64,000 bases of DNA. Origin: Ignavibacteriaceae bacterium. Its GTDB lineage: Bacteria; Bacteroidota; Ignavibacteria; Ignavibacteriales; Ignavibacteriaceae. The notes under the pieces are model-generated. The model saw only the letters and a program-made list of their open reading frames with translations. It was not told where the DNA came from and searched no databases. Where the stretch lies: contig JABDPB010000027.1 in NCBI GenBank assembly GCA_013042995.1, positions 1 through 64,000 on the forward strand, written 5' to 3'. Every line of letters begins with the position of its first letter. Position 1 is the stretch's first letter. Positions 46,424 to 61,119 of the stretch are shown here, piece after piece. A program made the position numbers and the translations under genes.

Positions 46424-46840
46424 ATGATTTGCCCGATTTGTAAAGATGCTATGATAATCCTCGAACTCGATCAAGTTGAAATAGATTATTGTACAACTTG
46501 TGAAGGAATTTGGCTCGATTCAGGCGAATTAGAAATGCTGCTTGAAAATGAAGCTGAGCGAAAGAAAGTTTTAGATACACTTCACGAAGATCATGATCAT
46601 CCTGAAAAACTGAATAAATGCCCAATTTGCGGTAAGAAAATGATAAAGGTTCACGCTGGTGAGAATAAAGAAGTGTTGATTGATAAATGTAAAAAAGATC
46701 ATGGTCTTTGGTTCGATAAAGGCGAACTAAACACTGTGGTTGAACTTGGTGCAAAGGAGGAGGAAAATAAAATTGCCCATCTTTTAAAGGAAATGTTTGA
46801 AAATAAAATATCAACAAATGACAAAGGAGAAACTAAATGA
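46424..46840 (+). CDS. Double zinc-ribbon (zf-TFIIB) protein
   Basis: The 138-residue cytoplasmic protein has two zinc ribbons: [33 protein letters not shown] (residues 3-37) and [22 protein letters not shown]...[11 protein letters not shown] (about 65-105). The (I/L)W(L/F)D(S/K)GEL ends are diagnostic of the zf-TFIIB family. The function is unknown. Its stop overlaps the lemA start in ATGA, so the two are translationally coupled, and an M48 protease follows. Confidence 0.88.
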
Positions 46841-47409
46841 CAGCGGTAATCATACTACTTGTCGTAGTTGCTGTTGTTGTGCTCTTCGTAATTTCAATTT
46901 ATAACTCATTAATCAAATTGAGAAACCAGGTAAAGAACGCCTGGTCTCAAATTGATGTTCAATTGAAAAGAAGACACGATCTTATTCCAAATTTACTGGA
47001 AACGGTAAAAGGATATATGAAGCACGAGCGCGACATAATGGAAAACATTACTAAATACCGCAGCCAGGCCATGGATGCAGGTACAGTTGGTGAAAAAGCT
47101 CAGGCTGAAGGATTGTTAAGCGGGGCTCTTGGACAGTTACGGATTCAAGTAGAGAATTATCCCGATCTAAAAGCAAACCAAAATTTTCTTGCGTTGCAGG
47201 AAGAATTGACTTCTACAGAAAATAAAATATCTTTTGCAAGGCAGGGTTACAATGATCAGGTGCTTTTCTATAACAATAAAATTCAAATGTTCCCTTCGAA
47301 CATTATAGCTGGAATGTTCAACTTTAAAGAAGAAGAATTTTTTGAAGTGGAAGACGAAAAAGAAAGAGAAGTACCAAAAGTTGATTTTACTGGTGAATCA
47401 CAAAAATAA
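46837..47409 (+). CDS. lemA: LemA-family membrane protein
   Basis: The 190-residue protein has one N-terminal membrane helix ([23 protein letters not shown]). The LemA core follows: [34 protein letters not shown], then [40 protein letters not shown], which matches the family very well. LemA proteins are often encoded next to M48 proteases, as here. Their molecular role is not known, with envelope quality control being one suggestion. The next gene begins 12 bases after its stop. Confidence 0.95.
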
Positions 47410-47421
47410 TTTTATCGTATT

Positions 47422-48636
47422 ATGTGGGAACTGATTCAAGCAAATAAGCGTAGATCAATTTTTCTGTTTTTCTCACTTGGAATTACATTGCTACTGCTCG
47501 GTTATTTACTGGGCAGTGCATATTTTCCAGATGGAGGTGGCTTTCTAGGTTTATTCTTCGCATTAATTATTTGGGGGATATTATCCCTGGTAGGCTACTT
47601 TAAAGGCAGTAAAATAATGCTTGCAGTTAGTGGTGCAAAAGAAGTTACAAAAGAAGTTCATCCACAACTGTTTAATATAGTTGAAGAAATGAAAATTTCT
47701 GCAAGTCTGCCTAAAATGCCAAAGGTTTATATTATTAACAGTCCAGCACCGAATGCTTTTGCGACGGGAATTAAACCTGAAGAAAGCGCAGTTGCGGTTA
47801 CTGCTGGTTTGCTTGCAAGATTAAACCGTGACGAATTGCAGGGAGTAATCGCTCACGAAGTTTCCCACATTGTTAATCGTGATGTACTTTTTATGACCTT
47901 TGCAGGCATTATGCTTGGAAGTATCGTATTAATTGCAAACGTATTTCTTCGGGGTCTTTGGTTTACTGGTGGGGGACGATATAGTTCTAGATCTTCCGGC
48001 AGTGGTGGCGGGCAAGCACAATTAATAATTATGATAGTTGCGATTGCTTTCGCTATTCTATCACCGCTACTTGCACAGCTACTTTATTTTGCAATCTCCC
48101 GCAAACGGGAATATCTTGCAGACGCATCGGCTGTTCGTTATACCAGATATCCGGAAGGATTAGCCTCCGCTCTGGAAAAAATTTCGGATTCTTCCGTTGA
48201 TTTGAAAACTGCAAACAAAGTTACTGCACCGATGTATATTATTAACCCTTTAAAACCTAAAGGAAGAAAACTTTCTAATCTAACAAGCACGCATCCTCCA
48301 ATTACTGAAAGAGTAAGAATTTTAAGAGGTATTTCAGGCGGTGCAAATTTTGTCGATTATCAAAATGCATTTAATAAAATAAAAAGAAGTAAGTCCCCTA
48401 TTATTCCAGCATCCGGACTTACTGATAAAACCCCCATTGGATTAAAAGATATTCTTATCGCTCCAACAGCTTTAGGCCTTGATAAAAAAACCAAACGCAA
48501 AATGGGTGATATAATGATGAAAGTTAATGAGTACTCATTCATTAATTGTAAATGTGGATTAAAAATCAAAGTTCCACCGGACTATAAAAAGGAATCACTC
48601 TTCTGCCCGCGCTGCGGGAGGCAGCATAGAATCTAA
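47422..48636 (+). CDS. M48 metallopeptidase with C-terminal zinc ribbon
   Basis: The 404-residue protein has two N-terminal helices, a zinc site HEVSH (H145, H149), a membrane hairpin, the third-ligand segment SRKREYLADASAVRYT, and the family end NPLKPKGRKLSNLTSTHPPITERV. It goes on for about 100 residues beyond a normal HtpX. The tail ends in CKCGLKIKVPPDYKKESLFCPRCG (four cysteines near residues 375-400), a zinc ribbon facing the cytoplasm. Its partner genes encode another zinc-ribbon protein and LemA. The tail may select substrates or sense zinc (inference). Confidence 0.9.
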   Translation: MWELIQANKRRSIFLFFSLGITLLLLGYLLGSAYFPDGGGFLGLFFALIIWGILSLVGYFKGSKIMLAVSGAKEVTKEVHPQLFNIVEEMKISASLPKMPKVYIINSPAPNAFATGIKPEESAVAVTAGLLARLNRDELQGVIAHEVSHIVNRDVLFMTFAGIMLGSIVLIANVFLRGLWFTGGGRYSSRSSGSGGGQAQLIIMIVAIAFAILSPLLAQLLYFAISRKREYLADASAVRYTRYPEGLASALEKISDSSVDLKTANKVTAPMYIINPLKPKGRKLSNLTSTHPPITERVRILRGISGGANFVDYQNAFNKIKRSKSPIIPASGLTDKTPIGLKDILIAPTALGLDKKTKRKMGDIMMKVNEYSFINCKCGLKIKVPPDYKKESLFCPRCGRQHRI

Positions 48637-48950: not shown

Positions 48951-49856
48951 ATGGGAGAAAAAAGTCGTCGCAATTTTCTTAAAACACTTGGGATAGCCGG
49001 AGCAGCTTGTACAGGCATACCTTCACAAAAACTTATTTCTAAAACTCAGCCTCAACTTTCTGAAGACCGTATGGGAGTGCTGGTTGATACAACTGTCTGT
49101 ATTGGATGTAGAAGGTGCGAGTGGGTTTGTAAAAAAACACATGATATTCCAGCAGGTGAAATTGAAAGCTACAGTGAAGAATCGGTTTTTTCGAAGATGA
49201 GAAGACCTGGAAATGAAGGTTATACTAAGGTAAACAGATATGATAATTATCAAAACCCAAGCAGACCTATAAATGTTAAAGTGCAGTGTATGCATTGCGA
49301 TCAACCTGCCTGTGTTTCAGCTTGTATCGTGGGTGCGTTTTCTAAGAAAGAAGATGGTTCAGTTGTTTGGGATAGCAATAAATGCATTGGATGTAGGTAT
49401 TGTATGGTTGCCTGTCCCTTCCAAATTCCAACGTTCGAATATGAAAATGCCCTAAATCCTGACATACACAAATGTGACTTTTGTGCGGAGAGAACAGAAG
49501 AAGGTTTACTGCCAGCATGTGTAGATATCTGTCCTGTAGAAGCACTAACATATGGTAAACGAAGAGATTTAATTGAAGTTGCAGAAAAGAGAATTAAACT
49601 TTATCCTGATCGCTATATTGATAAGATATACGGTTTTACTGAAGTCGGTGGAACTTCGTGGATGTATCTCGCAAATACTGAATTTGAAAAACTCGATTTT
49701 CCAAATTTAAGAGATAACCCTGCCCCCGGAGTTTCGGAATCAATACAACACGGAATATTTGCGTACTTCGTTCCTCCCATTTCACTTTATGCACTGCTTG
49801 GCGGAATCATGTGGGTTACAAAGAAAAAGAACAACAACAACGGGTGGAACAAATGA
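48951..49856 (+). CDS. Tat-exported 4Fe-4S ferredoxin subunit (HybA/HmcB-like)
   Basis: This 301-residue electron-transfer protein has a twin-arginine signal (SRRNFLKTLGIAGAA). It has four cysteine clusters: CIGCRRCEWVC (50-60), CMHCDQPACVSAC (113-125), CIGCRYCMVAC (145-155) and CDFC...CVDIC (175-194), which together hold four 4Fe-4S clusters. A C-terminal helix (FVPPISLYALLGGIMWV) anchors it to the outer face of the inner membrane. This is the HybA/HmcB/DsrO type. It should pass electrons between the NrfD-type subunit and a periplasmic partner, here the 13-heme cytochrome. The next gene overlaps its stop in ATGA. Confidence 0.92.
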   Translation: MGEKSRRNFLKTLGIAGAACTGIPSQKLISKTQPQLSEDRMGVLVDTTVCIGCRRCEWVCKKTHDIPAGEIESYSEESVFSKMRRPGNEGYTKVNRYDNYQNPSRPINVKVQCMHCDQPACVSACIVGAFSKKEDGSVVWDSNKCIGCRYCMVACPFQIPTFEYENALNPDIHKCDFCAERTEEGLLPACVDICPVEALTYGKRRDLIEVAEKRIKLYPDRYIDKIYGFTEVGGTSWMYLANTEFEKLDFPNLRDNPAPGVSESIQHGIFAYFVPPISLYALLGGIMWVTKKKNNNNGWNK

Positions 49857-51097
49857 TTGAATACGGATTCCAGCCTAAACCTATTAAAAGAAAATTTTTT
49901 ACACCATGGGTAATTGTTATTTCAATTATTGCTTTTACAGGATTAATATTTCTTGCATCAAGGTTCATCTTCGGTCTTGGTTCAGTCACAAATTTAAATC
50001 AGTTTTTTCCCTGGGGAATTTGGATAGGATTAGACGTAGCTGCAGGTGTTGCATTAGCGGCAGGTGGTTTTACTGCTGCGGCACTGGGGCATATATGGCA
50101 CAGAGACAAATACGAAATTTTTATAAGACCTGCTCTTCTCACAGCACTGCTTGGATATACTTTTGTAGCATTAAGTGTTGTTACCGATATCGGCAGGTGG
50201 AATTATGTTTGGCATCCCTTAGTCATGTGGAATGGTAATTCAGCTTTGTTTGAAGTAGGTATTTGTGTTATGGTTTATTTGAGTGTTCTTTATATTGAAT
50301 TTTTACCAATTGTAACAGAAAGATTTATTGGGAAAGTAAATTTACCGGGTTTTTTATCTGTATTAAATAAAGCAATAGACAGTCTGCTGAGAATATTAGA
50401 CCGAACACTTAATAAATTTATGTTTGTTTTTATAATAGCCGGTGTTGTTCTTTCCTGCTTGCATCAATCATCGCTGGGAACTTTGATGATAATTGCCGGA
50501 CAAAAGATGCATCCGCTTTGGCAAACGCCTGTATTACCACTTTTGTTTCTCCTCTCTGCTTTTTCCGTTGGTTTCCCGATGGTAATTATGGAATCACTTT
50601 CCGCATCAAAATCATTTGGAATGAAACCAGAAAAAGATATACTCTCAAGTCTGGCTAAATTTGTAGGACCATTACTCAGTTTTTATTTAGCATTTAAAAT
50701 TGGTGATATGGTTATAAGAGAATCGTTTGTTTATTTAACTGAGTTTAATGCGGCCAGCATAATGTTTACAATTGAAGTGGTAATTGGTGTTGCACTTCCT
50801 TTAAGATTGTTCTTATCTCCATCGGTTCGTGAATCTTCAACAGGACTATTTATTGCATCTATGCTAGTGATATTTGGAGTTTTAATTAATCGGTTCAATA
50901 ATTTTGTAATTGCTTACGATCCACCTTATACAGAAACATCTTACTTCCCATCAGTAGGTGAAATTGCTGTTACGCTGGGATTTGTTGCTCTCGAAATTTT
51001 ACTCTATCGCGCATTTGTTATGATATTCCCGATTATAAGCCAACCAATAAAAGGAGCAATACTAAAAACTAAATATGCTATTAAAGGTGCACGATGA
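49853..51097 (+). CDS. NrfD/HybB-family quinone-interacting membrane subunit
   Basis: I start this at ATG 49853, which overlaps the ferredoxin stop in ATGA and follows GGGTGG. The earlier ATG at 49811 would overlap by 46 bases and add a non-conserved tail. The 414-residue protein has about ten membrane helices. Family marks include FFPWGIWIGLDVAAGVALAAGGF, CLHQSSLGTLMIIAGQKMHPLWQTP and LPLLFLLSAFSVGFPMVIMES. NrfD-type proteins oxidise or reduce menaquinol at the membrane and exchange electrons with the ferredoxin subunit. The following cytochrome gene also overlaps in ATGA. Confidence 0.92.
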   Translation: MIEYGFQPKPIKRKFFTPWVIVISIIAFTGLIFLASRFIFGLGSVTNLNQFFPWGIWIGLDVAAGVALAAGGFTAAALGHIWHRDKYEIFIRPALLTALLGYTFVALSVVTDIGRWNYVWHPLVMWNGNSALFEVGICVMVYLSVLYIEFLPIVTERFIGKVNLPGFLSVLNKAIDSLLRILDRTLNKFMFVFIIAGVVLSCLHQSSLGTLMIIAGQKMHPLWQTPVLPLLFLLSAFSVGFPMVIMESLSASKSFGMKPEKDILSSLAKFVGPLLSFYLAFKIGDMVIRESFVYLTEFNAASIMFTIEVVIGVALPLRLFLSPSVRESSTGLFIASMLVIFGVLINRFNNFVIAYDPPYTETSYFPSVGEIAVTLGFVALEILLYRAFVMIFPIISQPIKGAILKTKYAIKGAR

Positions 51098-52221
51098 AAG
51101 CTCATCTAAAAATATTTATTTTCTTTTTAATTCTTAGTCAGTTTTTAATTACAAGTTTTGCACAGAATCATTCGCAAATGAAATTTGATTGCAGTTTATG
51201 CCATGCTTGTGAAACTCCAACGAAATCAGATCCCTGTTTAATCACTTGCCCTTGTGATGAAATGATGACAGTTCACATTCCGCCGGTTAGATCACCTAAA
51301 ATAATTACAATGCATAAATTGAATGTTAATCAAAATTTATATGAGCCTGTATTATTTTCACACAGAGTCCATGCAGAGATGTCGGAAATGTCTGGTGGAT
51401 GCGGAATGTGTCATCATTACAACCCGTCTGGAAATGTAGTACCCTGTAGCAATTGCCACCAAATAAATAGAAACAGAACAGATATTTCAAAGCCAGACTT
51501 AAAGGCTGCATATCACAGGCAGTGCATTGATTGCCACATGCAATGGAGTGATGATTTTTCTTGCACAAGTTGTCATGAATTAAACGAAAGCGGCAGAACG
51601 GCATTTGAAGAAAAGGAAATTAAAGAAGAAAGAGTACATCCGGAGATAGAAGTTCCTGAAAAACTTATTTACCAAACACCTGATCAAAAAAAATCGCTTG
51701 TTACGTTCTATCATAGTGATCATACGAATTACTTTGACTTTGAGTGTATAGATTGTCATCAGGAAGAAAGTTGCACAAGCTGCCATTTGAAAAATGAATT
51801 AAAATCAGAACAAAAGATTTCAATGAGGCTTAAACATAAATCTTGCAGCCAATGCCACTACACGGATGAAAAATCGGATTGTACCAAATGCCATATAAAA
51901 GAAATTGCAAAACCGTTTAATCACAAACGCCGCACAAGTTTTGAGCTTAAATCCTATCACATGGAATTAAGTTGCATTCGGTGCCACGAATCAAAATCAG
52001 TTTTTACGGGATTATCAAGTAATTGCGCAAATTGTCACAGCGGCTGGAATTTGGAAACATTTGATCATAAAGTAACAGGTCTTATGCTGGATGAAATGCA
52101 CGCTGATGTAGAATGTATAGATTGTCATCCAGGAGAAGATTTTTCTACTGTGCCATCTTGTGAAGATTGTCATGATGAAAAGACATATCCTGATGATAAA
52201 CCAGGTATACTTAAAAATTAA
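51094..52221 (+). CDS. Thirteen-heme periplasmic cytochrome c
   Basis: The 375-residue protein has a signal peptide (to SFAQ) and 13 CXXCH motifs by my count, from CSLCH (C33) to CEDCH near residue 355. This places it with the large class III (cytochrome c3-like) family, such as HmcA. The N-terminus has four further cysteines in CHACETPTKSDPCLITCPCD (C39, C48, C52, C54) that do not fit heme motifs and may bind another metal. It is translationally coupled to the NrfD gene, so the three form one complex linking the quinone pool to a periplasmic wire. The donor or acceptor at the far end is unknown. Confidence 0.93.
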   Translation: MKAHLKIFIFFLILSQFLITSFAQNHSQMKFDCSLCHACETPTKSDPCLITCPCDEMMTVHIPPVRSPKIITMHKLNVNQNLYEPVLFSHRVHAEMSEMSGGCGMCHHYNPSGNVVPCSNCHQINRNRTDISKPDLKAAYHRQCIDCHMQWSDDFSCTSCHELNESGRTAFEEKEIKEERVHPEIEVPEKLIYQTPDQKKSLVTFYHSDHTNYFDFECIDCHQEESCTSCHLKNELKSEQKISMRLKHKSCSQCHYTDEKSDCTKCHIKEIAKPFNHKRRTSFELKSYHMELSCIRCHESKSVFTGLSSNCANCHSGWNLETFDHKVTGLMLDEMHADVECIDCHPGEDFSTVPSCEDCHDEKTYPDDKPGILKN

Positions 52222-52250
52222 GTTTTGTATTTTTAGATGGTGATTATAAA

Positions 52251-54134
52251 ATGAAATTCAGACAAGCAAAAACAAAAATTAGTCTGAAACTGATAATTAC
52301 AGTTGGTATTGTAACTGCAGCGATAATTAGTGTCTATTCATATCTCAGTATTCAAGCTCAGCGGAATGAACTTCTCTCTCAAGCTGAACTTTCTGCTAAT
52401 AAATTAAGTGAAACTCTTAAAAAAAGCATGCATTCTAGTATGCTCCTCAACAAACAAGATCAAACGCATGCTATTATTAATGCCTCTTCTGAAGAAGCTT
52501 GCATACTTGAGATAAGAATCTTCAATAAAGAAGGAAGAATAATGTATTCGTCGCAGAAAGATGCTATTGGAGAAATGGTGGATAAAAAAACAGAAAGTTG
52601 TTATGCTTGCCACACTGCAGACGAACCGATACAAAGACTTTCATTTGATGAAAGAACCAGAATTTATAAAATACATCCAGATTCTGCTAGAATACTTGCG
52701 ATTATTAATCCCATTTACAATGAAAATTCCTGCTGGCAATCCAACTGCCATGTGCATAACGAATCCCAAACTGTATTAGGCGTTTTAGATGTAAAAATGT
52801 GTTTAAAGGATGTTGATGCTCAAATTGTTCACAGTGAAAACCGTTCGATAATTTTTGCTCTTATTGCAATTGCCCTTCTAAGTTTGATCATCGGAATTTT
52901 TGTACGCAAATGGGTAGAAAAACCCGTTAATGAACTTGTTACTGCAACAAATCAGGTTGGAACAGGAAATTTAAATTACATAATTAATGATTTAGGTTCA
53001 GATGAATTGGGTCTATTAGCAAAGTCATTTAATAATATGACTAATAAATTGGCTGAAGCAAGAATGCAGATTTTCCAATCGGATAAAATGGCCTCACTTG
53101 GTAGACTGGCGGCAGGAGTAGCGCACGAAATAAACAACCCACTTACAGCAGTTTTAACCTATAGCAGTTTTCTATTGAAAAGAGTAAAAAATAATCCGGA
53201 ATTAGAAGAAGATCTTAAGGTAATAGTAAAAGAAACAAAACGAAGTCGAGAAATAGTTAAAAGTCTGCTTGATTTTGCAAGACAATCAGTTCCTAAAAAA
53301 AATAATGCTGATGTAAATGAAATAATTAATAGCTCAATTTCTGTTGTAGAAAATCAAATCTCGCTCAAGCAAATTAAGCTTGAAATGAATTTAGATAAGA
53401 ATCTCCCTCAGGTAAAGGTAGATTCAAACCAGATACAGCAGGTGTTTATTAATCTTTTAGTAAATGCATCTGATGCAGTGATAGAAAAGAAGGGTAAAAT
53501 ATCTGTTACCTCAAAACTAGCCAATCTATCTCCATTCGGCACATTACAAATAAAAAATGCAGTTTGTTCAAAGCGTCATTCATTAATTGATGAGGAAGTA
53601 AAAATTGATGGAATGCCCACAATAAAAATTAAAGTGAAGGACAACAGTAACGAAGGATGTATCAATATTGATCCTATTTACGGAAAAAACAAGAGTAAGT
53701 ATTCATTAGAAATTAAGGATTTGGATAAAGTTCAACTATCTTGTCCGAAGTGCAATGTTTCGCTTACAGAAAAAGATGCGAACTGTCCAAAGTGTAAATC
53801 AAACATTTATTCATTTGAAGCACCTCCATACGGAATGTTTGAAGGCTGTGTAAATTCTGATTGCAATTGGCAGCAGTGGTCTTCAATTGATGAGGCAGGT
53901 GTACGGGACTACATTGAAATTAAAGTTTCTGATAACGGATGCGGAATTTCCAAAGACGATTTACAAAAGATTTTTGATCCTTTCTACAGTACTAAGGGGC
54001 AAAAGGGAACCGGACTTGGGCTGGCTGTAGTTTGGGGAATACTGGATAATCACGATGGTTCTATTAATGTTGAAAGTGAAGCTGAACGAGGAACTACATT
54101 CACTATTCTGCTGCCAGTAAAACAAAATGTGTAA
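52251..54134 (+). CDS. Heme-type sensor kinase with zinc-ribbon insertion
   Basis: The 627-residue kinase has two membrane helices (about 12-35 and 200-218). Its periplasmic domain contains CYACH (C117-H121) and CWQSNCH (C161-H167), a CX2CH and a CX4CH heme-attachment pattern, suggesting covalent heme. A HAMP linker and the HisKA box AHEINNPL (H292) follow. The ATPase domain has the N-box NLLVNASDAV (401-410), then an insertion of about 135 residues, then DNGCGIS (561), FDPFYSTK and GTGLGLAVVWG. The insert carries CPKC (498-501), CPKC (512-515), C533 and C538, a zinc-ribbon pattern. It follows the cytochrome by 29 bases and is presumably its regulator. Confidence 0.9.
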   Translation: MKFRQAKTKISLKLIITVGIVTAAIISVYSYLSIQAQRNELLSQAELSANKLSETLKKSMHSSMLLNKQDQTHAIINASSEEACILEIRIFNKEGRIMYSSQKDAIGEMVDKKTESCYACHTADEPIQRLSFDERTRIYKIHPDSARILAIINPIYNENSCWQSNCHVHNESQTVLGVLDVKMCLKDVDAQIVHSENRSIIFALIAIALLSLIIGIFVRKWVEKPVNELVTATNQVGTGNLNYIINDLGSDELGLLAKSFNNMTNKLAEARMQIFQSDKMASLGRLAAGVAHEINNPLTAVLTYSSFLLKRVKNNPELEEDLKVIVKETKRSREIVKSLLDFARQSVPKKNNADVNEIINSSISVVENQISLKQIKLEMNLDKNLPQVKVDSNQIQQVFINLLVNASDAVIEKKGKISVTSKLANLSPFGTLQIKNAVCSKRHSLIDEEVKIDGMPTIKIKVKDNSNEGCINIDPIYGKNKSKYSLEIKDLDKVQLSCPKCNVSLTEKDANCPKCKSNIYSFEAPPYGMFEGCVNSDCNWQQWSSIDEAGVRDYIEIKVSDNGCGISKDDLQKIFDPFYSTKGQKGTGLGLAVVWGILDNHDGSINVESEAERGTTFTILLPVKQNV

Positions 54135-54142
54135 ATATTTAT

Positions 54143-54949
54143 ATGGTTGAAGAAAAAGAAATACTTGTGGTAGATGATGAACAGGTTATACTGGATGCAA
54201 TAAACAGAATTGCCTCGGCTGAGGGAATTAATGTGGATACTGAAACTAACGGCAAAGCTGCTTTGAAGAAAGTCTCACAAAAAAGCTATTCATTGCTACT
54301 ATGTGATATACTCATGCCTGAGATGGATGGTTTTATGATTTTAGATGAATTACACAAAATGAAGAAACAAATTCCTATTATAATGATTACTGGGTTTTCT
54401 ACCGTTGAAAATGCAGTTAAATCTATTTCTAAAGGCGCTATTGATTTTGTATCAAAACCTTTTACATTCGAAGAATTGGAAAGTGCTATTAGCCGCGGGC
54501 TAGCTTATAATAAATTATTAATAAAATTAGAAGGAATAAAATCAAAAAAGAACAACTCTGATATTGGATTTGTTCCGTGTCCACCAAAATATCATAGGTT
54601 AGGCAACCACAGTTGGGTAAATCAGGAATCGGAGGGGATAATAATTTTAGGTGCTACTAATTTGTATCTTGAGATAATTAAAGATTTAAAAAGTATTAAT
54701 ATGATAGAATCTGATCAGCGATTAATACAAGGTGAATCCTGTGCAGAATTTATCACTAAAGATGATTTAGCGCATCATTTTCTTTCACCTGTCAGCGGAA
54801 GAATATTTGAAAGAAACGAAAAGTTGTTAACCGAAATAAATCTACTACAGAAGGACCCTTATTTTGGCGGGTGGATTTATAAAGTAATTCCTGAAGATAT
54901 TGAATATGACATGAAATACCTAACACCATGTGCATCTGACAGAATGTAA
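54143..54949 (+). CDS. Response regulator with GcvH-like output domain
   Basis: The 268-residue protein has a receiver domain at residues 5-120 (DDE at 11-13, phosphoacceptor D55 in CDILMPEMDG, K105). Its output domain, about 150-250, is not a DNA-binding domain. It aligns by eye with the glycine-cleavage H-protein: HSWVNQESEGIIILGATNLYLEII, GESCAEFITKDDLAHHFLSPVSGRIFERNE, and LLQKDPYFGGWIYKV. K206 sits about where H-protein carries lipoate, though the hairpin is two residues longer. It lies 8 bases after the kinase gene. The output could be a lipoyl-dependent redox switch or a protein-interaction module (inference). Confidence 0.85.
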   Translation: MVEEKEILVVDDEQVILDAINRIASAEGINVDTETNGKAALKKVSQKSYSLLLCDILMPEMDGFMILDELHKMKKQIPIIMITGFSTVENAVKSISKGAIDFVSKPFTFEELESAISRGLAYNKLLIKLEGIKSKKNNSDIGFVPCPPKYHRLGNHSWVNQESEGIIILGATNLYLEIIKDLKSINMIESDQRLIQGESCAEFITKDDLAHHFLSPVSGRIFERNEKLLTEINLLQKDPYFGGWIYKVIPEDIEYDMKYLTPCASDRM

Positions 54950-55011
54950 AAAATAATTTTTAGTTAAACATAGTTAGTTTGAAAGTAGAAAATATATAAC
55001 AGGGAGATACA

Positions 55012-56160
55012 ATGGCACTCTTTATATTAGCTGTAATCGTATTTATAATTTCTGATTTATTAATCCGATACATTGCAAAAAGAGTTAAGGAAAATAAACT
55101 AAGGCAGGAAAGGGAAGATGGATTAAAAGAAAGTTTGAAACTTGATTTTACGAGTGAAGCAAAAACCTTAAAACGTGCAGAAGTTGAGAAACCAAAAGCC
55201 AGGATTTTATGTGTTGATGATGAGGCAGTAATTCTGGATAGTTTTAGAAAAATTCTTGTACTTGACGGATATTTTATTGATACCGTTGAAACGGGCAAAG
55301 AAGCATTGGGGCTTGTTCAATCTCATTCTTACGATTTTGTATTTACTGATCTTAAGATGCCAGAAATGAATGGAGTTGAAGTTACTAAGGCAGTTAAACA
55401 TATTCGCCCTGACATAGATGTAGTTATTATTACTGGCTATGCAACTGTTGAATCTGCAGTTGAATGTATGAAATATGGTGCGATGGATTATGTGCAGAAA
55501 CCATTTACAGAAGATGAACTTTTAGATTTTACCAAGAAACTTCTTATCAAAAGAGAAAATAGAATAAGTAAATTGATAAAACCAAAGGTTCATATTACAC
55601 ACCTTGATGAAAGCGGTAGTGTTTCCAATACCGAATTCCAGATACCTGGAGGTGTGTTTATTTCCAACGAACATTGCTGGACTAAGGTGAAAGAATACGG
55701 AACTGTTAGAATCGGCATTGATGATTTCGCAAAAAAAATAATAGGAAAAATTGATTCAATTGAATTGCCGAATCTCGGAATGGTTGTAACAAATGGTCAG
55801 CATTTATTTTCAGTCAAACAAGGACATAGAATTATTTCATTCAAATCTCCGGTTAGCGGTAAAGTTGGCAAGATAAATAAATTCATTAATGATGAAATTG
55901 AGTCTTTAAATAATACCACTTATGAAAAAAACTGGGTTTGTGAAGTAGAGGCTGAAGAACTCGATACAGAATTATCATCTTTAAAAATTGGGAAATCTGC
56001 TGTATCATTTTATCAGGATGAAATTGAAAAGTGCAAAGAGATGAAGAAAAAGTTTAGAAAAGGGAAAGAATTAGAGTCAGGAGAATTAATATACTGTGGA
56101 GAAATGGAGGAAATGGATGATGCTGAATGGATAAGTTTTGTAAAAGAGTTTTTTGAATGA
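55012..56160 (+). CDS. Membrane-anchored receiver protein with GcvH-like domain
   Basis: The 382-residue protein begins with one membrane helix (MALFILAVIVFIISDLLI) and a charged linker. A receiver domain spans residues 63-180 (DDE at 69-71, D113 in FTDLKMPEMNG, K163). A second GcvH-like domain covers about 216-313: HCWTKVKEYGTVRIGIDDFAKKII, LFSVKQGHRIISFKSPVSGKVGKIN, and YEKNWVCEVEAEE. K269 in the SVK motif is the candidate lipoyl lysine. A coiled, lysine/glutamate-rich tail follows. AGGGAG lies before the ATG. With the gene at 54143 it gives two receiver-GcvH proteins, one soluble and one membrane-bound. Confidence 0.85.
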   Translation: MALFILAVIVFIISDLLIRYIAKRVKENKLRQEREDGLKESLKLDFTSEAKTLKRAEVEKPKARILCVDDEAVILDSFRKILVLDGYFIDTVETGKEALGLVQSHSYDFVFTDLKMPEMNGVEVTKAVKHIRPDIDVVIITGYATVESAVECMKYGAMDYVQKPFTEDELLDFTKKLLIKRENRISKLIKPKVHITHLDESGSVSNTEFQIPGGVFISNEHCWTKVKEYGTVRIGIDDFAKKIIGKIDSIELPNLGMVVTNGQHLFSVKQGHRIISFKSPVSGKVGKINKFINDEIESLNNTTYEKNWVCEVEAEELDTELSSLKIGKSAVSFYQDEIEKCKEMKKKFRKGKELESGELIYCGEMEEMDDAEWISFVKEFFE

Positions 56161-56443: not shown

Positions 56444-59400
56444 ATGAGTAAAAAATTACTTTTACTTACTCTATCTTTTTTGCTTCTCTGTTTTTCTTCC
56501 ATCCTTGCACAAGAAGATGAAGAACAATTTGAAGAAGTATTTTATAATCCCTACTTTCAGTCGGGTTCATCTGGATTTGAACTTGATGGACAAGTTATTG
56601 AAGGTTCGGACTGGGAATGGCTTCATCCAACTCCTAATGGTAGCACTTTGAATTGGGTGCAAGTTATTGATGCCAATACCTGGCTTATGGCGGGTTTTGG
56701 CGGAACATTTATGAAAACAACAGATGCCGGTGCCACGTTTACCGTATACAAGACTGTTGGTAATTTAAGTGCTTCTGGAATTTACCGCACTATCTATGAT
56801 GGTCACTTTTTTGATGCAAACACTGGTCTAATTTGTGGTTCAAGTGGTACTCTTCTAAGAACTACTGATGGCGGTGCAACCTGGGATTCTGTTGGTGTAG
56901 GATCCTCATCCACCATATACTCAATGTGTTTTCTTGATGCAAATGTTGGGTTCATTATAGGAACAACCACTATTGACGTCTGGAAAACAACCGATGCCGG
57001 ATTAACCTGGACAAAACTCTCAGGTGGGATTCTAGGAACAGCGTACGAGATTTTTGCCACCGATGAAGATACATTGTTCTACGGCTCTACATCCGGTGAC
57101 CTTGGCAGAAGTAATGATGGCGGTGCAACTTGGATTGAAGTAGATATAGGTATTTCCGAAACAATAAGAGAAATTGAATTTTCTACACCAACTGATGGAT
57201 GGGCAGTAGGAGATGATGGCGCTGCATCGTACACTACCGATGCTGGTTTAACATGGACTTTAGCTAATACCGGATTACCGATTACATCCGATTTTAATGA
57301 CGTTGAAATCATGTCCACAATGTCTCAAACTTTAAATGAAGGTTTTGAGGATGTTACCTTCCCACCAACAGGGTGGCATGCTAAAAATATTCTTGGTCCA
57401 ATTGAATGGTTCAGAGCCACAGGTACTGCGCATACAGGAGATGCCAGTGCAAGAGTCTCATGGGATGGTTCAGGTGGGGAAGATTGGTTGGTCACACCAC
57501 AAGTACCCATTGTAACAGGTGATTCATTAAAATTCTGGGCACGCAAAATATTCTCCACAGTTTATGAACCAGATACTATTGAAATCAGGATCTCTATGAC
57601 CGATACATCAGTAGCAAGCTTTACAGATGTTATTTATAAAAATAGTGTTAATGTAGCGTTTAATACTGTATTTGAGCAATTTGCTTTCGATTTAAGCGCA
57701 TACAATGGAATGAACGTATATATTGCATTCCGCCATTATGATGTGGATGGAAATGGAATGTATCTTGATGATGTTACCGTTGGAGAACCTATGGTTTCTG
57801 AAGTAGCTTTAATAACCGGCGATCCATTCGATATATACTTTACAACAGATATGGGAACAACATGGACTCCATATTTTATTTTAGATCCTACTCAGCTATG
57901 GACGGGTGAGTTTTTTACTACCAGTTTTTATGGTGGTGGTATTGAAGCTATTACTGTTGGAACAAGGGGTATGATAAACGGTTGGTCCACTCCATTCAGC
58001 AATGCTGGTGGAAACATTGCTTATAATACCTGGTTAAAATCAGGAACACTCTACGATATTTCAGTTCAATCTGCAGAAAGAGTAGTAGTAGGTGGGCAAC
58101 CTGGAATTTCAGGAAGCACTTTCGATCAAGTAGTTTACTCAACAGATTTTGGAGAAACCTGGGGAATTGCAACTTTTAGCGATTCAATGACGCAGGACGT
58201 AAATGACATGAATTTTTTTGGAAGTATTTTTACAGGTTATCTTTGTGGAGATGAAGGAAGAATATACAAAACAACCGATGGTGGTGAAACCTGGACATTT
58301 GTTTCAGAACCAACCACACTTGAATTAGAAGTAATATTCTTTTTTGATGAAAATAATGGGTTTACTTTTGGTGATGATGGTGCAGCTTTCAAGACCACAG
58401 ATGGTGGAGCTACCTGGGCTACTTTAACCACAGGATTTGGAACCGCAGATATTTGGACTGCATCTTTTCTAGATATTAGCAATTTTTATATTGCCGGTAG
58501 CAGTGGAACCCTAGAATATACTACAGATGGTGGGACTACATTTACTCCGCTAAATCCTGATTTTGGAACCTCGACTATATACAAAATTGAAATGCTTGAT
58601 GCTAATGATGGTTACCTGTGTGGTAGTTCTGGAAAAGTAAGAAAAACCACTGACGGTGGAACAACCTGGACCACTATTGACCCAGGTTTGAGTACCGGTA
58701 GTATTTATGATCTTGATTTTTATGATTCAATATATGGAGTATTAACACAAAGCAGCGGAAGAACATATTATACTAACGATGGTGGTACCACCTGGTTCTT
58801 TGAAAATACTGGGGCGAGTTCACTTTATGCTGTTGATATTTACGATACTAGCCCTGATACTGCAGCAGTTTTTGTTTGTGGTTCCCTTGCTTTCATCCAA
58901 AGAAATATGGATGTTATTGTTCCTGTTGAACTTTCCAGCTTCACAGCTTCAGTTGCAGAAAATAATGTTACACTGGAATGGATGACAGCAACAGAGCTGA
59001 ACAACCTTGGGTTCTATGTAGAAAGACAAGAATCTGAACAGTGGAGTGAAGTTGGATTTATCGAAGGAAGTGGTACAACAACTGAAACACAGGAATACAG
59101 ATTTGTGGATAGAAATGTACCTGCAGGGACATACTATTATAGAATTAAGCAGGTAGATTTTGATGGAACTGCAAAATATTATGAGCATCAGCAGGAAGTT
59201 GAAGTAGGAGCTCCAGCTTCATATGAGCTTTCGCAGAACTATCCAAATCCATTTAATCCAACAACTAAGATCAAATATTCTGTTCCTGCAGATGGCTTTG
59301 TTAACATTGCTGTTTATAACATACTTGGAGAAAAAGTTGTAGACATAGTAAATAGCATTCAGAAAGCCGGACGCTATGAAGTTAATTTCGATGCAACAAA

Positions 59401-59479
59401 CATTGCAAGCGGAATGTATCTTTATAGAATGGAATCAGGAGATTTTGTATCTATTAAGAAGATGATGATCCTGAAATAA
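56444..59479 (+). CDS. Large BNR/Ycf48-like propeller with T9SS sorting domain
   Basis: The 1011-residue protein has a signal peptide (to ILAQ) and many copies of the repeat TTDGG(A/T)TW preceded by a GxxGTL(L/R) strand. This is the sortilin/Ycf48-like BNR propeller pattern, in two blocks at about residues 50-290 and 530-820. Between them a jelly-roll of the cleaved-adhesin/MAM type reads GFEDVTFPPTGWHAKNI...ARVSWDGSGGEDWLVTPQ. A fibronectin-like segment (PVELSSFTASVAENNVTLEWMTATE) precedes the sorting domain (LSQNYPNPFNPTT to KKMMILK). It should be a surface or secreted protein. CGGAGG precedes the ATG, and a strong terminator follows. Confidence 0.9.
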   Translation: MSKKLLLLTLSFLLLCFSSILAQEDEEQFEEVFYNPYFQSGSSGFELDGQVIEGSDWEWLHPTPNGSTLNWVQVIDANTWLMAGFGGTFMKTTDAGATFTVYKTVGNLSASGIYRTIYDGHFFDANTGLICGSSGTLLRTTDGGATWDSVGVGSSSTIYSMCFLDANVGFIIGTTTIDVWKTTDAGLTWTKLSGGILGTAYEIFATDEDTLFYGSTSGDLGRSNDGGATWIEVDIGISETIREIEFSTPTDGWAVGDDGAASYTTDAGLTWTLANTGLPITSDFNDVEIMSTMSQTLNEGFEDVTFPPTGWHAKNILGPIEWFRATGTAHTGDASARVSWDGSGGEDWLVTPQVPIVTGDSLKFWARKIFSTVYEPDTIEIRISMTDTSVASFTDVIYKNSVNVAFNTVFEQFAFDLSAYNGMNVYIAFRHYDVDGNGMYLDDVTVGEPMVSEVALITGDPFDIYFTTDMGTTWTPYFILDPTQLWTGEFFTTSFYGGGIEAITVGTRGMINGWSTPFSNAGGNIAYNTWLKSGTLYDISVQSAERVVVGGQPGISGSTFDQVVYSTDFGETWGIATFSDSMTQDVNDMNFFGSIFTGYLCGDEGRIYKTTDGGETWTFVSEPTTLELEVIFFFDENNGFTFGDDGAAFKTTDGGATWATLTTGFGTADIWTASFLDISNFYIAGSSGTLEYTTDGGTTFTPLNPDFGTSTIYKIEMLDANDGYLCGSSGKVRKTTDGGTTWTTIDPGLSTGSIYDLDFYDSIYGVLTQSSGRTYYTNDGGTTWFFENTGASSLYAVDIYDTSPDTAAVFVCGSLAFIQRNMDVIVPVELSSFTASVAENNVTLEWMTATELNNLGFYVERQESEQWSEVGFIEGSGTTTETQEYRFVDRNVPAGTYYYRIKQVDFDGTAKYYEHQQEVEVGAPASYELSQNYPNPFNPTTKIKYSVPADGFVNIAVYNILGEKVVDIVNSIQKAGRYEVNFDATNIASGMYLYRMESGDFVSIKKMMILK

Positions 59480-59607: not shown

Positions 59608-61119
59608 CTACTTTATTAAAATCATCTTCTTCATCTCAACAAAGCTATCAGTTTGTAACCTATAGAAAAAGATTCCACTTGGTAATCCAGTACCTGTAAA
59701 TTCAACTTCGTAGTTGCCGGTGGGTTTTTCTTTATTAACAAGCATTTCAATTTCATTACCAAGCACATCATAAACTGTTAATGTAACAATACTCTCTTCT
59801 GCTAATTCATACCTTATTGTTGTAACTGGGTTGAAAGGATTTGGGTAATTTTGATTAAGCATAAAATTATAAATTACCAAAACCTCTACTTCAATAGTTT
59901 TTGAGAATTCAAAAGTTCCATCGAAATCAATCTGTTTTAAACGGTATTGATGTTTTCCATTTAAAAGATTTTTATCAATAAAAGAATAATCTTGTTCTTC
60001 GGTTGTTGTGCCATTTCCTTCTTTAAATCCTATGGTTCGCCAATCACTGTTTTCAGTTTTTCTTTCAATTTCAAAACCGTGATTATTTAATTCTGTTGCT
60101 GTTTGCCAATTGAGATGGATATTATTATCTATTTGTATTGCTGAAAAGGAAATCAATTCCACCGGTATTGTTGATTGTACCGTTATATATAGCATTTGTG
60201 GCACACCTGTACCAGCATATACATATCCTAAAGAATCAACTGCAAGCTTCCAGGGTGGAATATGAAGTAATCCTGAAGTAAATTGATGCCACGAATCTCC
60301 ATTATCAGTTGACCTATAAACCCCAGATCCCGCTGCAATTAGTATGTGCCCTAATCGATTTTCCTCAATATCAATTACCGATATTGTATTAAACTCATCA
60401 ACTATCTCCCACGTAATTCCGTTATCAGCTGATTTGAATAAATGACCTGCAGGAACACCGCCCCATGGTGTTCCACAATATAGAATTCCATTTTTTGCTG
60501 CAAATAAAGTATAAATTTCATCCGGCGCAGAAGAAATTAGCTCCCAATCATCTCCTTTATTTGAAGACTTATACAGCAGACCTTCAATCCCAGGTCCCCA
60601 AAAACTAGCAAAGCATAAATTTTTATTAAAGATTATATCAACCATAATGCTTGAATCTATTCCAATTTCCGCCCAGGAATTTCCTTCATCAGTTGATCGA
60701 TAGGTATACTTATGTGGATTATTATCAAATTGAATGAAAATATCTCCTGCACTATTTGTCATTATTGGATTTGGTTCACGAATAATTAGGTAAGGATTGA
60801 ATGGACTATTTAATGTAATCCAAGTATTTCCTTCATCAGTTGATTTCCTTAATAAATCTGATATGAAGTATATAACACCAGTTGGTGAAGTTCCAACATA
60901 ACTGAAGCTCGGTGCTCCTGGATTTATGTTTTCCCAAGACTGTCCGTTATCAGTTGATCGGTGTAAGTCTGCTTCATAGTTGATAAAGACATTACCATTG
61001 CTACTCACAGCAATACAAGATGGATCCACAGTTGGTGGCTTCAATTCTTGCCATAAATTTTGTGCAAATGCTTGAATCGAGATAAGAACAACTAATATTG
61101 TAATTATTAATGTTTTCAT
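59608..61119 (-). CDS. BNR-repeat protein with T9SS sorting domain
   Basis: The 503-residue protein has a signal peptide (to AFAQ) and about six BNR-type repeats (RSTDNGQSWENI, KSTDEGNTWITL, YRSTDEGNSWAEI, YKSSNKGDDWELI, KSADNGITWEIV, YRSTDNGDSWHQF). The linker is PVELISFSAIQIDNNIHLNWQTATELNNHGFEIERK. The type A sorting domain reads NQNYPNPFNPVT to KKMILIK. The linker is closely similar to the one in the 56444 protein, so the two share a common C-terminal half. It is likely a surface-attached propeller. The two genes converge. Confidence 0.88.
   Translation of the reverse strand: MKTLIITILVVLISIQAFAQNLWQELKPPTVDPSCIAVSSNGNVFINYEADLHRSTDNGQSWENINPGAPSFSYVGTSPTGVIYFISDLLRKSTDEGNTWITLNSPFNPYLIIREPNPIMTNSAGDIFIQFDNNPHKYTYRSTDEGNSWAEIGIDSSIMVDIIFNKNLCFASFWGPGIEGLLYKSSNKGDDWELISSAPDEIYTLFAAKNGILYCGTPWGGVPAGHLFKSADNGITWEIVDEFNTISVIDIEENRLGHILIAAGSGVYRSTDNGDSWHQFTSGLLHIPPWKLAVDSLGYVYAGTGVPQMLYITVQSTIPVELISFSAIQIDNNIHLNWQTATELNNHGFEIERKTENSDWRTIGFKEGNGTTTEEQDYSFIDKNLLNGKHQYRLKQIDFDGTFEFSKTIEVEVLVIYNFMLNQNYPNPFNPVTTIRYELAEESIVTLTVYDVLGNEIEMLVNKEKPTGNYEVEFTGTGLPSGIFFYRLQTDSFVEMKKMILIK

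Follow-up and report, generated by a model that had tools for sequence, protein, structure and literature searches.

To our knowledge, how bacteria make a quick choice among parallel quinol-oxidising complexes is an open question. It is raised in concrete form by a six-gene locus of an Ignavibacteriaceae bacterium (assembly GCA_013042995.1, contig JABDPB010000027.1, positions 1 to 64,000; these 64,000 nucleotides, part of a 3.44-Mb draft genome, are henceforth the window), in which a respiratory module is followed by a sensor kinase and two receiver proteins, RR1 and RR2, with GcvH-like domains. We read this conserved operon as a self-regulated respiratory complex on which the kinase acts through phosphorylation of RR1 and RR2, a reading to which we give a probability of roughly 0.55. 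The six genes occupy 48951-56160, all on the + strand:

48951..49856, +, HybA/HmcB-like ferredoxin with a Tat-type (twin-arginine translocation) N-terminus, 4Fe-4S domains and a hydrophobic C-terminal tail (Pfam, NCBIfam)
49853..51097, +, NrfD/HybB/HmcC-like membrane subunit, from ATG 49853 (Pfam, NCBIfam)
51094..52221, +, 13-heme cytochrome of class III / c7 type, 13 CXXCH motifs (Pfam)
52251..54134, +, sensor histidine kinase, transmembrane (TM)-Cache-TM-HAMP-HisKA-HATPase (Cache as predicted), with a Zn-ribbon-like insert
52599..52613, +, CXXCH of the kinase sensor, residues 117-121, invariant in 38/38 aligned rows
52731..52751, +, CX4CH of the kinase sensor, residues 161-167, followed by an invariant H169, in 38/38 aligned rows
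53538..53894, +, CX3H plus four-Cys Zn-ribbon-like domain of the kinase, inserted before the G1 box of the ATPase domain
54143..54949, +, RR1: receiver (residues 7-116) and GcvH-like domain without lipoyl lysine (154-258)
55012..56160, +, RR2: N-terminal hydrophobic helix, receiver (65-172), GcvH-like domain (218-335) and C-terminal tail
55204..55527, +, RR2 receiver domain (Pfam; predicted structure against 3crn, Z 21.6, 1.4 Å over 129 residues)
55663..56016, +, RR2 GcvH-like domain, no conserved lipoyl lysine (Pfam; RR2-family profile against 3ift, E 8.5e-17)

Coordinates and domains confirm what a first-pass annotation, made from the letters of the window, had described as six same-strand genes with ATGA overlaps in the first three. 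The ATG of NrfD at 49853 overlaps the ferredoxin stop in this way (the open reading frame (ORF) as listed opens at GTG 49811), and the cytochrome ATG at 51094 overlaps the NrfD stop likewise. Further on, 29 bases lie between the cytochrome stop and the kinase, 8 between the kinase and RR1 and 62 between RR1 and RR2. This spacing suggests that the six genes form an operon; pattern scans for promoter- and terminator-like sites gave no excess over shuffled sequence.

The arrangement is conserved well beyond the window. Loci anchored on RR2 were taken as the best 80 of 131 confirmed relatives from one scan of genome contigs, and 58 of the 80 (those in which 6 kb or more precede RR2, the other 22 being shorter) were evaluable for gene order. 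The strict six-gene order was present in 51 of these 58, with median gaps of 0, -4, 13, 2 and 37 bases (approximate values, based on first start codons) and most junctions below 100 bases. The first-pass annotation had joined the respiratory module to the signalling trio of kinase, RR1 and RR2, and the order of these loci bears it out, ruling out random genomic association. The record titles of the ordered loci name Ignavibacteria, Calditrichota (two loci) and Elusimicrobia (two loci), and those of the whole set of 80, as deposited, Ignavibacteria, Melioribacter, Stygiobacter, Calditrichaceae/Caldithrix, Elusimicrobia and one Kiritimatiellaeota, among others. The block was seen around 25 sampled places as well as in the 80-locus set, with flanks that vary. 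At four Melioribacter/Stygiobacter-type loci (L067:10842-20437, L081, L082, L102) genes downstream of the six encode cytochromes with 16, 14 and 7-8 CXXCH motifs; L067, L081 and L102 have in addition a 19-CXXCH cytochrome, and L067 a b561-like protein. These genes may make up a cluster for extracellular electron transfer. The L082 operon stands in a record of Stygiobacter electus, a culturable relative.

Kinase and RR1 stand immediately before RR2 in 62 of the 65 loci with at least 2.9 kb available (the misses are L124, L126 and L139). The seven exceptions to the six-gene order include two with a gene in two ORFs (the kinase in L071, NrfD in L088), one in which two extra ORFs between cytochrome and kinase push HybA outside the counted span (L077) and one Elusimicrobia locus with no RR1 in place (L126). 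RR2 itself is patchily distributed: long matches (at least 474 bits) occur in 26 of 59 genomes, namely the source genome and its relatives, and the protein was found in 28 of 395 genomes from the phylum (E <= 1e-60) and in 4 of 198 from the phylum of the L126 genome (E <= 1e-40). Among plasmid records, none of the at least 5000 tblastn matches listed for RR2 reaches 80% query cover, and its matches in PHROGs fall on the receiver part.

The remaining exceptions bear on what the trio follows. In L076, L131 and L119, kinase, RR1 and RR2 stand behind another HybA (42-43% identical to that of the window) and another NrfD (31-33%). The cytochrome of this module is a 5-heme one, and a further RR2-like gene stands ahead. 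The 13-heme gene was found in none of the four genomes searched (G058, listed as 98% complete, and the genomes of the three loci), while all seven controls, the window's own genome included, matched. G058 and the genome of L119 seem to come from one organism, which limits the independent cases of such a swap to three at most. The trio thus follows a HybA-NrfD pair even where the pair itself differs, and its retention through the exchange is a second ground for the linkage proposed at first pass.

The kinase can be traced by its insert, of which C439, H443, C498, C501, C512, C515 and C533 are invariant in 21/21 rows and which has no clear Pfam family and nothing better than E 0.047 in the PDB. 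At 154 bits or above the insert gave 26 matches in 58 genomes, 25 of them at loci seen with HybA/NrfD and the last (G003:C353) on a contig also bearing an NrfD match; in these 58 genomes the full kinase was therefore not found without the complex. Four weaker matches exceed 58 bits. One (L166) belongs to the same operon, truncated where its contig stops, next to HybA, NrfD and the 13-heme cytochrome; two are proteins that look NuoE-like by eye, beside hydrogenase-like genes also identified by eye (L167:5662-6510, L168:4677-5606); in the fourth, a 155-amino-acid ORF (L169:5522-5989), the insert occurs as a small protein on its own. A marginal fifth is G043:C21 (E 7e-4).

What, then, are the GcvH-like domains doing beside a respiratory complex? 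RR1 and RR2 score 57.1 and 67.9 bits against the Pfam GCV_H model (cut-off 22.2), which places them in the GcvH-fold superfamily, and the RR2-family profile matches H proteins of the PDB down to E 8.5e-17. The structure matches listed for RR2 in the PDB are all receivers, and the relation to GcvH therefore rests on profiles. In 27 genomes of the order, 29 of the 32 non-canonical full-length GCV_H genes lie within 5 kb of a same-strand NrfD gene, and canonical GcvH lies within 7 kb of NrfD in 0/27. In 15 further genomes, 38 of 44 non-canonical genes lie within 7 kb of NrfD (strand not counted; these genomes were selected on the presence of RR2, and independent evidence comes only from the genes they have besides) against 0/15 for canonical GcvH. 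Canonical genes were told apart by eye, through scores of more than 90 bits in the 27 genomes and more than 102 bits in the 15; partial GCV_H rows in carrier-type frames (about positions 15-82 of 122), one NrfD row below cut-off (G037) and one short fragment row (G071) were dropped. The misses among the 32 are two in G003, on a 3650-base contig, and one in G016, where no NrfD was found. Those among the 44 are two in G062 (a contig of about 4 kb), two in G063 (about 9 kb), an unlinked RR1 (G059:C4) and G068:C3, which carries a lipoyl-like E-T-I-K motif and is probably not of this GcvH-like family, though counted as a miss. At the G068 locus (L154:4976-5494), this GcvH-like protein with a lipoyl-like lysine motif has an OsmC-like gene nearby, by eye. 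In the genomes surveyed, then, non-canonical GcvH-like genes generally accompany NrfD genes, a relation that is new; in the open-licence papers searched we found no description of receiver-GcvH proteins with NrfD.

Twelve of the 32 non-canonical genes (frames of 201-249 amino acids) have no receiver. In the proteins examined, the GcvH-like domain lies between a hydrophobic N-terminus and a conserved tail, and their genes, except in G016, stand directly before another HybA-NrfD pair, in what we call sister operons (L035:1705-5077; L142:5685-8986; L145:6819-10235; L146:6985-10413; L151:3685-7054) with the order receiver-less GcvH-like gene, HybA', NrfD' and a second GcvH-like gene with a Cys motif, often with a one-CXXCH kinase and a long receiver protein. 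The output region of RR2 aligns with the receiver-less family over 191 columns, to the last residues (hhalign 99.9%, E 3.4e-35); the corresponding probabilities are 99.0% for RR1 with RR2, 95.6% for RR1 with the Cys-motif family and 98.3% for the two receiver-less families with each other. A midpoint-rooted tree of 66 domains puts RR2 within the receiver-less group (support 0.957 and 0.975, the whole group 0.361), as it does the one Cys-motif row, and RR1 forms a separate clade (0.998). The profile alignments show homology between the output of RR2 and the receiver-less proteins beside other HybA/NrfD pairs, something invisible from the window alone, and RR2 is best read as a complex-associated protein carrying a receiver.

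One way in which such domains could act is as lipoyl carriers, and the first-pass annotation had indeed proposed that the receivers work by protein contact or lipoyl chemistry. The GCV_H matches of RR1 and RR2 are what would recommend the view that they carry lipoate and act as redox shuttles, together with a lysine at the aligned site in 15/88 RR2 and in 4/9 receiver-less relatives. The site was taken as eight residues before the P of P-V-S-G, leaving out sequences lacking this anchor (3/91 RR2, 10/81 RR1), and was tallied for RR1, RR2 and nine receiver-less proteins of the non-canonical genes. It is lysine in 0/71 RR1 and is not conserved in RR2, whereas the canonical genes have the E-x-V-K motif (E-A/S-V-K) in 12/12 loci examined (12 of 42 canonical matches). 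Neither RR1 nor RR2 thus conserves the lipoyl lysine within E-x-V-K of a functional GcvH; lipoyl-carrier function was rejected for both on the lysine counts, and we regard the redox-shuttle proposal as very improbable. RR1 and RR2 share a family profile with GcvH and differ from it in being fused to receivers, in lacking a conserved lipoyl lysine and, for RR2, in the N-terminal hydrophobic helix.

The signalling parts of the trio look intact. In the kinase, H292, N405, D561, G563 and G565, the HisKA histidine and residues of the HATPase boxes, are invariant in 21/21 rows and the motif HE[IL]NNP is present in 90/90; the receiver residues D69, D70, D113, T141 and K163 of RR2 are invariant in 40/40 rows, and the receiver catalytic motifs of RR1 are kept in 86-93 of 93 (tallies of 90, 93 and 104 count some contigs twice). 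Pfam finds no DNA-binding domain in RR1 or RR2, each being a receiver plus GCV_H, and the earlier proposal that they act otherwise than on DNA holds in this respect. Intact receivers would also suit a phosphorelay or sink, in which RR1 and RR2 pass on or drain phosphoryl groups and so control a transcription factor, for example a nearby sigma-54-type regulator. L036, L042, L043 and L071 do have nearby a related one-CXXCH kinase together with a long receiver protein (about 450 amino acids), and that of L071, the only one run, has sigma-54 and Fis-type helix-turn-helix domains. We consider this improbable: there is no transcription factor among the six genes, many loci hold the six without such a regulator adjoining, and the conserved GcvH-like domains and N-terminal helix would be left unexplained.

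On the input side, the kinase carries its CXXCH and CX4CH between the first TM helix and HAMP, and C117, C120, H121, C161, C166, H167 and H169 are invariant in 38/38 rows. CX4CH is a heme motif known in cytochrome c3, and the sensor may bind heme covalently. The predicted sensor structure is a single Cache domain (mean predicted local distance difference test score 85.0; against the Cache domain of WalK, Z 13.1 and 2.5 Å over 137 residues), so that with its CXXCH the modelled sensor fits the heme-c Cache type. Its nearest heme-c relatives in PDB searches are the sensors GSU0935 and GSU0582, the matches being weak (Foldseek 9.8e-6 and 1.7e-4, but root-mean-square deviations of 13.9 and 15.5 over the whole alignment; 3b42 by sequence, E 0.0032). 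The window kinase misses the sCache_heme cut-offs of Pfam (PF21563, 19.3 bits against 27; PF11845, none listed); at E <= 0.1, PF21563 is found in 27/38 members of the sensor family and PF11845 in 1/38. It shares with these sensors the single Cache fold with CXXCH, unlike them adding a conserved CX4CH-x-H.

These relatives bear on what is sensed. The first-pass annotation had the kinase report the redox state of the periplasmic heme pool of its own complex; in a 2026 preprint (PMC12889525), a section on a heme-c Cache domain of signalling type describes nitric oxide (NO) sensor-like properties, including slow NO dissociation, and assigns GSU0935 and GSU0582 to that family, which leaves the redox reading as one of two live readings. 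The other, compatible with the output side of our interpretation, is that the kinase senses NO or another gas and that the operon protects or re-routes respiration under NO without reading its own heme pool. We hold this to be quite possible, if a little short of even. Beside the weakness of the PDB matches, it has to accommodate the second conserved motif, CX4CH with H169, which the sections of the preprint cited here do not mention; a second heme or ligand would better fit an electron-accepting site.

The respiratory half of the locus belongs to a recognisable type, and the resemblance to Hmc and Hyb complexes stated at first pass stands, with all values under the curated cut-offs. The nearest NCBIfam models of the first three genes are HmcB/HybA, HybB/HmcC and HmcA, the ferredoxin scoring 317.6 bits for HmcB (cut-off 420) and 248.9 for HybA (263), the NrfD subunit 264.2 for HmcC (550) and the cytochrome 44.4 for HmcA (400). 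The ferredoxin has Fer4 domains (Pfam), an RRNFLK N-terminus and a hydrophobic C-terminal tail, the last two seen by eye (Pfam TAT_signal, 19.3 bits, is below its cut-off of 22.7), and the cytochrome is of Pfam class III, with 13 CXXCH also in almost all complete relatives. Tat-type ferredoxin, NrfD and multiheme cytochrome together make this a HybA/NrfD electron-transfer module.

Among known systems, the Hmc and Nhc complexes of Desulfovibrio (HmcA-F; rrf1, rrf2) likewise combine an HmcB/HmcC-like pair with a periplasmic multiheme cytochrome and have regulators encoded beside the complex, according to the parts of PMC10924467 and PMC4215793 that treat them. They differ from the window in cytochrome size (16 or 9 hemes, against 13 CXXCH) and in the GcvH-like output of the receivers and the heme-motif kinase found here, and the window proteins do not reach the equivalog cut-offs for HmcA, HmcB and HmcC. 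Pfam finds no hmcD-, hmcE- or hmcF-like gene among the six, the flanking genes having been viewed by eye only. By eye, a Zn-ribbon protein, LemA and M48 peptidase look-alikes lie upstream (46424-48636), and downstream are two proteins (56444-59479 and 59608-61119) with a C-terminal NYPNPFNP-type tail, comparable to type IX secretion cargo.

Similar in layout are the HybA-HybB-cytochrome modules without hydrogenase of PMC10924467, whose relevant section describes a periplasmic cytochrome, frequently an octaheme one, together with a HybB/NrfD-like protein whose gene is immediately preceded by that of a tail-anchored Tat ferredoxin. That section gives no pattern in the flanking genes, where the window has a flank conserved as a signalling trio. 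The NrfCD cluster of Melioribacter roseus (Mros1572/Mros1571), which PMC3534657 presents as a quinol:acceptor reductase that lacks a molybdopterin subunit and may pass electrons to multiheme cytochromes, is by its description perhaps the same module; the passages concerned mention no kinase or receiver. Hmc and quinol oxidases for extracellular electron transfer are further covered, in the portions relevant here, by PMC4215793 and PMC6295460.

How could these parts work together? HybA (Fe-S), NrfD (the membrane quinol/quinone subunit) and the 13-heme cytochrome would connect the quinone pool with periplasmic hemes by electron transfer. The kinase would sense an extracytoplasmic signal through its putative heme-c Cache sensor and phosphorylate both RR1, which is soluble, and RR2, which is membrane-anchored. 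The N-terminal helix of RR2 reads as a TM anchor and is followed by basic residues, and the orientation of TM helices follows the positive-inside rule, so a cytoplasmic position is expected for the receiver and the GcvH-like domain. Within the complex, NrfD is the component expected to extend to that side of the membrane, which would make RR2 a phospho-controlled accessory subunit. RR2 may be viewed as a membrane protein of the receiver-less kind with a receiver set between its N-terminal helix and its GcvH-like domain, and the GcvH-like domains of both proteins as versions of those that accompany HybA/NrfD complexes, not conserved lipoyl carriers. Phosphorylation would then alter the docking of RR2 on the cytoplasmic side of the NrfD complex, changing flux through the complex or its assembly. 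Our proposal is that RR2, and probably RR1 as well, derive their role from accessory subunits of the complex, of which they would be versions under phosphorylation control; we infer heme loading, signal, phosphotransfer, docking and effect on the complex, as well as the passage from genomic company to physical contact. The more specific scenario, in which an anchored GcvH-like subunit gained a receiver and a heme-c sensor kinase now gates quinone-to-heme electron flow without transcription, is tentative and rather less probable than the general reading. The same holds for its corollary, by which one large group of HybA/NrfD complexes would include as a subunit a membrane-anchored GcvH-like protein that has no lipoyl function.

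The conservation and NrfD-neighbourhood data would equally support a different role, with the GcvH-like domains as assembly or stability factors and phosphorylation setting the amount of the complex and not its turnover. Twelve aligned receiver-less relatives open with a hydrophobic stretch, by eye, as a membrane scaffold could. Control of assembly and control of activity fit the present data alike; a kinase with an extracytoplasmic heme-motif sensor would fit fast control somewhat better, and we consider the scaffold role unlikely, if well ahead of a phosphorelay.

Several observations weigh against a self-regulated complex acting through RR1 and RR2. A GcvH-like gene is near only 20 of 56 NrfD genes in the 27 genomes, so that NrfD proteins as a class can do without it; the NrfD genes without such a neighbour are mostly frames near 460-480 or 310-340 amino acids, sizes that, going by length, may fit alternative complex III and Psr types, with a few others such as G009:C40, G000:C97 and G045:C105. 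G016 (L140:2479-3908) keeps both GcvH-like genes of the sister operon with no NrfD found, and the RR1 of L126 (36% identical) lies on another contig without an NrfD match (L153:5571-6359, G059). The lysines at the lipoyl site in 4/9 receiver-less proteins lie outside any E-x-V-K motif. The predicted RR2 model has a predicted template modelling score of 0.47, making its domain arrangement unreliable, and the GcvH tree is built on a short domain, its canonical rows not forming one clade, hence the midpoint rooting. Both the 80-locus and the 15-genome counts are conditional on RR2, by which they were collected or chosen. In favour of the reading, pairwise distances of the six genes correlate at 0.72-0.87 across the 51 ordered loci, values that include shared vertical descent.

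With these points taken into account, a self-regulated complex is still our preferred reading, and the conservation of the six genes across several phyla suggests that the cell tunes its respiration by switching the complex directly, not its genes. Most likely the kinase switches the complex, in activity or assembly, by phosphorylation at the cytoplasmic face of the membrane. If this is true, a sensor kinase acting on a complex through receiver-bearing subunits would be a fast post-translational route of control for anaerobic respiration and possibly for respiration outside the cell. A role would then also be suggested for those GcvH-like proteins that have no conserved lipoyl lysine and that family searches label as glycine cleavage H-protein.

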